Below, in pieces: positions 31,843-33,300 of a DNA stretch of 42,450 nucleotides. Source of the stretch: Candidatus Levybacteria bacterium CG2_30_37_29 (lineage in GTDB: Bacteria > Patescibacteriota > Microgenomatia > Levybacterales > GWA1-39-11). Position numbers and translations under genes: made by a program. The stretch is taken from contig MNYS01000010.1 in the NCBI GenBank assembly GCA_001873215.1, forward strand, positions 1-42,450, in the 5' to 3' direction. The notes beneath the pieces are model-generated. The model was not told the origin of the DNA. It saw nothing but the letters and a program-made list of their open reading frames with translations, and did no database searches. How positions within the stretch are numbered: the stretch's first letter is position 1; each line of letters opens with the position of its first letter.

Positions 31843-33300
31843 TTAGACTAAAATGCTTCCTGTTAATATTGAGCCTGTAGTTCCGTCAAGTGTCACAATT
31901 GTATCTTTACCGAGATAAAATTGATTTTGAGCATCTATTCCTATAGCAACTGTGGGAACACCAAGATTTTTAACTCTTATAACTGATGCAAGCCTATCGT
32001 TGTATTTTTTAAGGATTAGACCACTTGCCCTCTTTACTTCAGGTAGATAATTATCAATAGAAAGTGAAGTTACAACAATGTGTCCTCTTTTGATTTGAAA
32101 AAAATCCGCTGGATTATTAACATAGACAATTTTTCCTATTCCAATTCCCGGAAATACTGCAATTATGTCTTTTGACTCACTAAAATTTTCTTCAACGTAT
32201 GGCGTATATTCATATCTTGCCTTAACATATATTTTATCCACCTTCGCAGAAAACCGAGAGCGTAAGCTCGCGGATGAATGTGAAGAAATTTCTGCTTCGG
32301 CGGATTCCACTCCGCCGTGCAGAGTGGAGAAGATATCGCGGGTGTTAACCCGCGGATCTTCATCTTTAACGCAAACCCACTCAATTACTTGAGGGAAATA
32401 ATATTTTTTTTCAGCCTTTTCCGTTAATGTAGCCAAATATAGTATCAATCCGTCACTAATTTTTTGATTTTGTGAATATTTTTTTTCTACTTTTGATTTT
32501 ACAAAAACACCTTTTTTATATATATGCATTTCTTCCTGCCGAACTATTTTTTTTTCTACAATACCACCTTTATTTTTCAAAACTGTGTATGTGTCATAAT
32601 CAAAACCCGTTTCTAAATACCCAAAGCCTGCTGCTATAAATACATTTTCCTTATCCAAGGTTTTGGATGAGCCTGAAGCTAATACGTCAAGTACGTTTGT
32701 TATAACTACTGAACAATTCTCACAAGCCTCAATAAATCCGTTTTTATATCTTTCTATCAAGGCAGAAGGGATATAGCAATATGACCAAATTTTTCTTAAT
32801 GCATCCATTACAACAGCGTCCCCTTTGAAAATTTCTGCTGTTTTGCAGTATCTTTCGTTTAAAAAGCATTGCATGTTAGATTGTTGTATTAGAACGTATG
32901 AGTTTTTTCCAACAGACTCGTAAAAAGAAAATATTTGATCTGACAATTCACGAGGAACTTTTGATTTTTGGATAAGTTTTTGAATATGCGATGAAACCTG
33001 AAGAATAGATGCCTGATTATCAAAATTTATACTTCCTAAAAGGTGATTGATTTTCTTTTTTAGATTTCCCTCCTGCAAAAAAAGTTCGTATGCGTTTGAC
33101 GTTACGACAAAACCCGGAATAATAGGAAATCCGTTATGAGACATCCCTCCAATAGAAGCCGCTCTTTCTCCTGCATATGCAATGTCGTCATTCTCAACAT
33201 CATTTAAAGACACCACAAAATCATGTGATCTGATCATACTATTATTTTGGACAAAATCTGAGGAAAAAGCAAGACTTCTGTCTGAAAGAAAATTACGCAA
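31843..33300 (-). CDS. Degenerate PEP-synthase/PPDK-like protein (catalytic His and ATP-grasp motifs absent)
   Basis: GERAASIGGMSHNGFPIIPGFVVTSNAYELFL resembles PPDK_N; GHIVVTSLSIDNYLPEVKRASGLILKKYNDRLASVIRVKNLGVPTVAIG resembles the mobile domain but without the TCHAAI His motif. Confidence 0.75.
   Translation of the reverse strand: MRNFLSDRSLAFSSDFVQNNSMIRSHDFVVSLNDVENDDIAYAGERAASIGGMSHNGFPIIPGFVVTSNAYELFLQEGNLKKKINHLLGSINFDNQASILQVSSHIQKLIQKSKVPRELSDQIFSFYESVGKNSYVLIQQSNMQCFLNERYCKTAEIFKGDAVVMDALRKIWSYCYIPSALIERYKNGFIEACENCSVVITNVLDVLASGSSKTLDKENVFIAAGFGYLETGFDYDTYTVLKNKGGIVEKKIVRQEEMHIYKKGVFVKSKVEKKYSQNQKISDGLILYLATLTEKAEKKYYFPQVIEWVCVKDEDPRVNTRDIFSTLHGGVESAEAEISSHSSASLRSRFSAKVDKIYVKARYEYTPYVEENFSESKDIIAVFPGIGIGKIVYVNNPADFFQIKRGHIVVTSLSIDNYLPEVKRASGLILKKYNDRLASVIRVKNLGVPTVAIGIDAQNQFYLGKDTIVTLDGTTGSILTGSILV
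32243..32361. repeat. GC-rich multi-hairpin palindromic element inserted in frame within a CDS
   Basis: CGaGAGCgtaaGCTCgCG (32255-32272), CGGCGGattccactCCGCCG (32298-32317), alternative TTCCACTC...GAGTGGA, GAAGATatCGCGGGTgttaACCCGCGgATCTTC (32329-32361), enclosing GCAGAAA...TTTCTGC. Confidence 0.75.

Follow-up and report, generated by a model that had tools for sequence, protein, structure and literature searches.

How did a protein gene come to contain a GC-rich run of hairpins that leaves its reading frame open? The gene in question encodes a PEP-synthase-like protein of Candidatus Levybacteria bacterium CG2_30_37_29 and lies in the window studied here, an entire contig (C4, 42,450 nucleotides) of a 1.0-Mb assembly that is 99.6% complete. 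Rickettsia is the best-known source of palindromic elements inserted in frame. A recent review merely speculates on their presence in other prokaryotes (PMC10969869). A preliminary description, prepared from sequence alone, had proposed that consecutive hairpins at 32243-32361 represent a mobile palindromic element that lies in frame and codes for protein, the counterpart in a different lineage of those in Rickettsia and Wolbachia. The hairpins were located as described, the open frame and the peptide given for it were both correct, and the span held in part, the exact borders being those in Table 1. The interpretation is supported, with mobility and translation remaining inferences.

Table 1. 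Host gene, inserted element and structural parts, in window coordinates.
Feature	Position	Strand	Remarks
Host gene, PEP-synthase-like protein with PPDK_N domain	31843..33300	-	485 aa, TTG start; Pfam match
Mobile element (mobility inferred), left to right end	32238..32363	+	126 bp = 42 codons; boundaries from aligned copies and empty sites
Retained target TTTAT (gene strand: ATAAA)	32233..32237	+	5' of left end; also at the empty site of orthologue L155
Left-end unit, outer stem CTTCGCA/TGTGAAG around left hairpin	32242..32285	+	matching unit at left end of tnpA-bearing L224
AGAAAA directly 5' of left hairpin, candidate left guide bases	32248..32253	+	placed as in IS200/IS605 (PMC6006769); function inferred
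Left-end hairpin CCGAGAGC-GTAA-GCTCGCGG	32254..32273	+	compensatory changes in 6/8 pairs (helix 3)
Middle hairpin	32291..32323	+	occupies tnpA position of full elements; tnpA replacement inferred from L224
Right-end hairpin GAAGATatCGCGGGT-gtta-ACCCGCGgATCTTC	32329..32361	+	compensatory changes in 5/8 inner pairs (helix 6)

The insert, its copies and its hosts

With a GC content of 0.54 the element stands out from the remainder of the host gene (0.33), whose reading frame runs through it uninterrupted. Its fold as RNA reaches -63.4 kcal/mol (z = -7.4 against shuffled sequence) and the fold as DNA is comparably extreme (z = -7.9). Most of the hairpins listed in the preliminary description belong to one branched structure. 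This structure is backed by covariation between copies: both sides are altered in 82 cells and 93.8% of cells are paired, as opposed to 7-11 cells and 40-50% in a control in which the partners were slid. The host protein is considerably shorter than the PEP synthases of relatives (755-799 aa) and lacks the C-terminal part found in these. Since this part is absent and a second PPS-like open reading frame of 820 codons is present elsewhere in the genome (G000:C10:171865), the host gene is possibly a paralogue.

According to the preliminary description, its proposal would have been refuted by a lack of further copies in this genome and its relatives, or by orthologues that all carry the segment as a conserved domain. 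Neither refutation applies. A whole-genome search with the segment retrieved three further full copies (E = 1.4e-42, 3.7e-31 and 4.3e-13; identities of 90, 84 and 75%), and the element is therefore not due to chance. One copy (L002) resides in frame within the triosephosphate isomerase gene tpiA, in the same orientation and frame as in the ppsA-like gene, such that related insert peptides appear in triosephosphate isomerase (NNEAPRVNARGIFSTLPNGAESAEAEISSHSSSNLSSRFSAKVDK) and in the PEP-synthase-like protein (DEDPRVNTRDIFSTLHGGVESAEAEISSHSSASLRSRFSAKVDK). Another (L003/L016) sits precisely at the stop codon of a methyltransferase-like gene and the remaining one (L004/L017) is intergenic. When the four full copies were combined in a covariance model, a further five diverged elements of about 120 bp were detected in the same genome, along with single diverged elements in genomes of the same family. 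Copies within a genome are generally 80-95% alike (maximum 98%), so that recent spread is not required.

Four of the five diverged elements of this genome, L018, L019, L021 and L022 (contigs C3, C7, C10 and C1, about 120 bp each), form a sister group. They resemble the main element at the left end, TTCAAGAAAACC-hairpin-GGATGAATTGAA, and differ from it at the right end, AACATCTT..AAGATGTT. They mostly lie immediately 3' of genes.

Outside this genome, about 45 copies were found in Patescibacteria of many candidate phyla. A search with the pattern of the right hairpin arms returned 48 stretches in named genomes, nearly all of them patescibacterial (Woese-, Davies-, Gottesman-, Curtiss-, Ames-, Chisholm-, Nealson-, Sungi-, Portnoy-, Uhr- and Berkelbacteria). 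With a model derived from 32 copies and strict filters, the element was detected in 26 of 381 genomes sampled from the phylum, a figure to be taken as a minimum. Every host of the element is a metagenome assembly. A match in Methylomirabilota (L063) lacks the left end and is apparently due to chance, and a phage origin was rejected in the absence of any match among 2.9 million viral contigs. The open-access literature searched, restricted to openly licensed papers, did not contain an earlier report of the element in Patescibacteria.

Frame-preserving insertion without target duplication

A typical copy reads TTTAT|CCCCCTTCGCAGAAAACC-hairpin-GGATGAATGCGAAG-TTTTCTGCTTCGGAGGGATTTCGCTCCCGACGAAGC-TGGGGAGAAGATACC-hairpin-GGGAGCTTCAT|, and the boundaries are fixed across copies, T(T)TAT| on the left and CTTCAT| on the right, the latter being also the last letters of the window element. 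The target is found on the left side only, as TTTAT in 40 and as TTAT in 47 of 48 copies, and none of the 48 is accompanied by a target-site duplication. Copy lengths range from 84 to 176 bp, most are multiples of three, chiefly 126 or 129 bp, and no transposase gene or long open reading frame of their own occurs within them.

The segment is absent from orthologues as a clean indel. Triosephosphate isomerase lacks the insert, located between the first helix and the second strand, in 16 aligned relatives, and PEP synthase continues uninterrupted through IEW/SEW...K.YIVQTR in 13 relatives. At the very codon concerned, the tpiA orthologues L140, L143, L146 and L147 contain the target as AATAAA or TATAAA, while at the empty site of the ppsA orthologue L155 the letters GATAAAATATAT are identical to those directly following the element in the window. 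As the target is thus present at empty sites, insertion took place between pre-existing bases and without duplication.

All 14 clearly intragenic copies keep the frame and have lengths in multiples of three, namely 126 or 129 bp except for a single copy of 96 bp. Pfam supports TIM, GatB, YrdC/TsaE, FemAB and PIN proteins as hosts; UvrA-, RecJ- and VanW-like proteins are additional hosts as judged from their sequences. Among non-coding copies only 17 of 28 have such a length (Fisher p = 0.0075). It must be kept in mind that counting via open reading frames that span the element favors multiples of three by construction. This bias was countered by joining the flanks and by comparing the classes of empty sites with those of all TTTAT sites. 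Joined flanks did not reveal a clearly disrupted gene at any copy of another length. Two copies were borderline in the TTTAT-site classification, L098 (near the start of an open reading frame) and L069 (possible stop).

The consequences of insertion depend on the phase in which the target, A|TAAA on the gene strand, is met by the start of the element, A|TGAAG. On account of these letters, a TAA stop codon that is hit becomes a TGA stop codon (nnA-TAA to nnA-TGA), and 13 copies are so placed behind an upstream open reading frame of at least 60 codons. In the phase nAT-AAA, which turns into nAT-GAA-GCT, the frame is free of stops in 25 of 32 typical copies; it is used by 12 of the 14 intragenic copies, including those in the ppsA-like gene and tpiA of this genome. 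The third phase yields ATG-AAG-CTC and is open in 23 of the 32. The frame downstream is preserved because the target is not duplicated and most copies are multiples of three in length. An insertion would therefore either add about 42 residues to a protein, translation of the insert being inferred, or exchange one stop codon for another. Stop-codon sites account for 10 of 49 copies compared with 1.7% of all TTTAT sites (about 12-fold enrichment, p = 8e-9), and intragenic sites are rarer than expected (18 of 49 copies, 72% of all TTTAT sites, p = 4e-7). Both deviations indicate that insertions are evidently filtered by selection.

Terminal hairpins, probable transposon origin and rival explanations

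What the preliminary description could not see is the origin of the element, which possesses the terminal hairpins and boundaries of IS200/IS605-type transposons. The same right-end hairpin, GAAGATACCCCG..CGGGGAGCTTCAT, directly follows the stop codon of an IS200 tnpA on a cyanobacterial contig (L101/L092), and close forms of it are present 3' of tnpA in the patescibacterial elements L205 and L212. The tnpA-bearing patescibacterial element L224 combines a left end with TTTAT, identical spacing, an outer stem TCGCA/TGCGA and GAATACTCC-hairpin-GGGGATGAATGCGA with a right end of the form AGATACTGCGG-hairpin-CCGCAGTAATTCAT. These matches were obtained with model R2 and by inspection. The resemblance of L224 to the window element is one of architecture, not letter by letter, and an autonomous element with full-length identity to the latter was not found. 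The IS200-type tnpA of L224 contains one in-frame TGA.

The most plausible reading is a non-autonomous, PATE-like element of Patescibacteria that derives from IS200/IS605 and would be moved in trans by a Y1 transposase, both mobility and transposase being inferred. In this view, the two ends of an IS200-type insertion sequence make up the element, the transposase gene has gone and the third hairpin stands where tnpA would have been in the ancestral IS-like element. In IS200/IS605, guide bases located 5' of each hairpin determine where TnpA cleaves the single-stranded DNA (PMC8266576, PMC6006769). By analogy, both hairpins would be recognized in single-stranded DNA by a Y1 (HUH) TnpA supplied in trans, which would cut the element out and place it 3' of TTTAT, leaving the target as a single copy. 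Insertion into nnA-TAA would restore the stop, and insertion into nAT-AAA would usually provide a stop-free frame and about 42 extra amino acids. AAAA and GAAG are found at the expected guide positions 5' of the hairpins, with too little variation to probe pairing with the cleavage sites. Transposition in trans, guide function and translation of the insert thus remain inferences, and evidence from transposition, transcripts or proteins is not at hand. The mobilizer, perhaps a visiting or since-lost IS200, is likewise only inferred, because a canonical IS200 tnpA is absent from this genome and a Y1 gene was not detected in five of the 19 element-bearing genomes checked.

A different source of mobility could be provided by the domesticated TnpA_REP (RAYT) transposases common in these genomes, which would make the element REP/BIME-like. 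In fact, five TnpA_REP-like Y1 genes (206-247 aa) are encoded in this genome, 14 of the 19 element-bearing genomes checked contain Y1 genes, mostly of TnpA_REP-like size, and in two genomes (L106, L113) a weak diverged match lies less than 1 kb from a TnpA_REP-like gene. This reading is nevertheless unlikely. The TnpA_REP-like genes of this genome are flanked by other short palindromes, and model R1 found nothing convincing in the flanks of such genes in this genome and its family. Furthermore, the element has two unlike ends and no GT[AG]G foot on its hairpins, it persists in the five genomes without a Y1 gene, and its ends resemble IS200 elements with tnpA instead. Even less probable is a functional structured RNA, be it a guide RNA, riboswitch or terminator, that was dispersed incidentally. 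It would account for the strong covarying structure along the full length and for the placement of several copies at the ends of genes, a position in which a terminator role of the right hairpin is conceivable. However, a transposon that moves as a single strand and has its ends recognized as hairpins should show covariation just as well, Rfam yields no match at E <= 1, a TnpB above cut-off is absent from this genome, and the copies occur sense and antisense to genes and within coding sequence, with fixed boundaries and empty sites. The open frame and the similar peptide in two proteins might suggest a normal protein domain, or a loop that arose in the protein as a peculiarity of the lineage. 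This can be all but excluded: the same DNA is found with the same boundaries between genes and also at stop codons, it is reversed in two genes, and orthologues lack it.

Some specific identities were also considered and rejected. The segment GTGG..ACCGCGGG is T-box-like, but neither a T-box nor another known RNA was matched in Rfam at E <= 1. A TnpB guide RNA (omega RNA) was dismissed for want of a TnpB domain above cut-off in this genome and hence of a linked tnpB, and an autonomous IS200/IS605 insertion sequence because the element is too short to encode a Y1 TnpA.

Other palindromes share the genome with the element. Each of the TnpA_REP-like Y1 genes (L028, L034, L040, L047 and L050) is associated with a short palindrome of its own, e.g. 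GGGTCCGACCC, GAGGTGGCACCTC and CGATCCCGTATCG, and together they amount to a compact collection of REP-like systems for a single small genome. A second, far shorter palindrome, CCTGCCTGCCGGCAGGCAGG (core CCTGCCGGCAGG), occurs at 17 sites (reversed control: 0), among them L246 in the gene for IMP dehydrogenase, L233, L234, L235, L238, L239, L244, L245 and L247; L095 is a site in another genome. At most inspected sites an open frame runs through it and gives the peptide (L)PAGRQ, as in AARNLPAGRQETNIPVIADGG of IMP dehydrogenase; this peptide is not mentioned in the open-access literature searched. Short palindromes are also nested in copies of the main element (L069, L054, L075, L089, L091), such as CCTGCCTGCCGGCAGGCAGG in L069 and GGTCGAACGTCGCCAAAGGCTTTGCCGACGGCGCGAG in L075 and L089.

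Relation to known elements and significance

The element, probably derived from IS200/IS605, behaves like the palindromic elements of Rickettsia, has the anatomy of a PATE, and the chemistry of its transposition can be identified. It shares with the PATEs of Haloquadratum walsbyi the lack of a transposase and of terminal inverted repeats, and near-terminal palindromes related to IS605-type ends; some PATEs are fused transposon ends (PMC3119063). PATEs stem from haloarchaea, and the sections of that work bearing on the matter do not report frame-preserving insertion into genes or stop codons. The patescibacterial element, in contrast, has a conserved third hairpin and a nearly constant length in multiples of three. 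With IS200/IS605 it has in common two different subterminal hairpins, a short T-rich target on the left only, the absence of duplication (PMC6006769, PMC8266576) and ends similar to those of tnpA-bearing L224, L101, L205 and L212, but it lacks tnpA and tnpB and measures only 84-176 bp in total. REP/BIME sequences with their TnpA_REP are likewise dispersed palindromes tied to Y1 transposases; REPs, however, are 21-65 nt long, mostly extragenic and equipped with a GT[AG]G foot (PMC8266576, PMC6006769), whereas the element has two distinct ends and no foot.

The Rickettsia palindromic elements (RPE) are similar in being about 100-150 bp long, rich in hairpins, dispersed and inserted in frame into unrelated genes with a related peptide (PMC10969869). 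The patescibacterial element belongs to another phylum and the likeness is one of behavior only, as a relation in sequence to RPE families was not tested. A transposon origin of RPE is not stated in the relevant sections of that review, whereas the ends of the patescibacterial element identify one.

A phenomenon of the Rickettsia type is thus now seen across Patescibacteria and can be traced to a transposon family of known chemistry, and survival of the frame is explained because insertion does not duplicate the target. Triosephosphate isomerase and GatB are among the core enzymes that carry inserts, so it becomes possible to test how gaining about 42 residues at one stroke affects the evolution of proteins in minimal genomes. 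A bolder reading bears the possibility that selection has shaped the family into a gene-compatible parasite, with a length in multiples of three, an open reading frame on the strand found within genes and, at one end, first bases that restore a stop codon upon landing in TAA. Whether its harmlessness evolved or is a mere accident is not decided by the evidence. If the bolder reading were true, a gene-compatible parasite would represent a general route from single-strand transposons to protein-coding palindromes, and could explain the Rickettsia elements as well.
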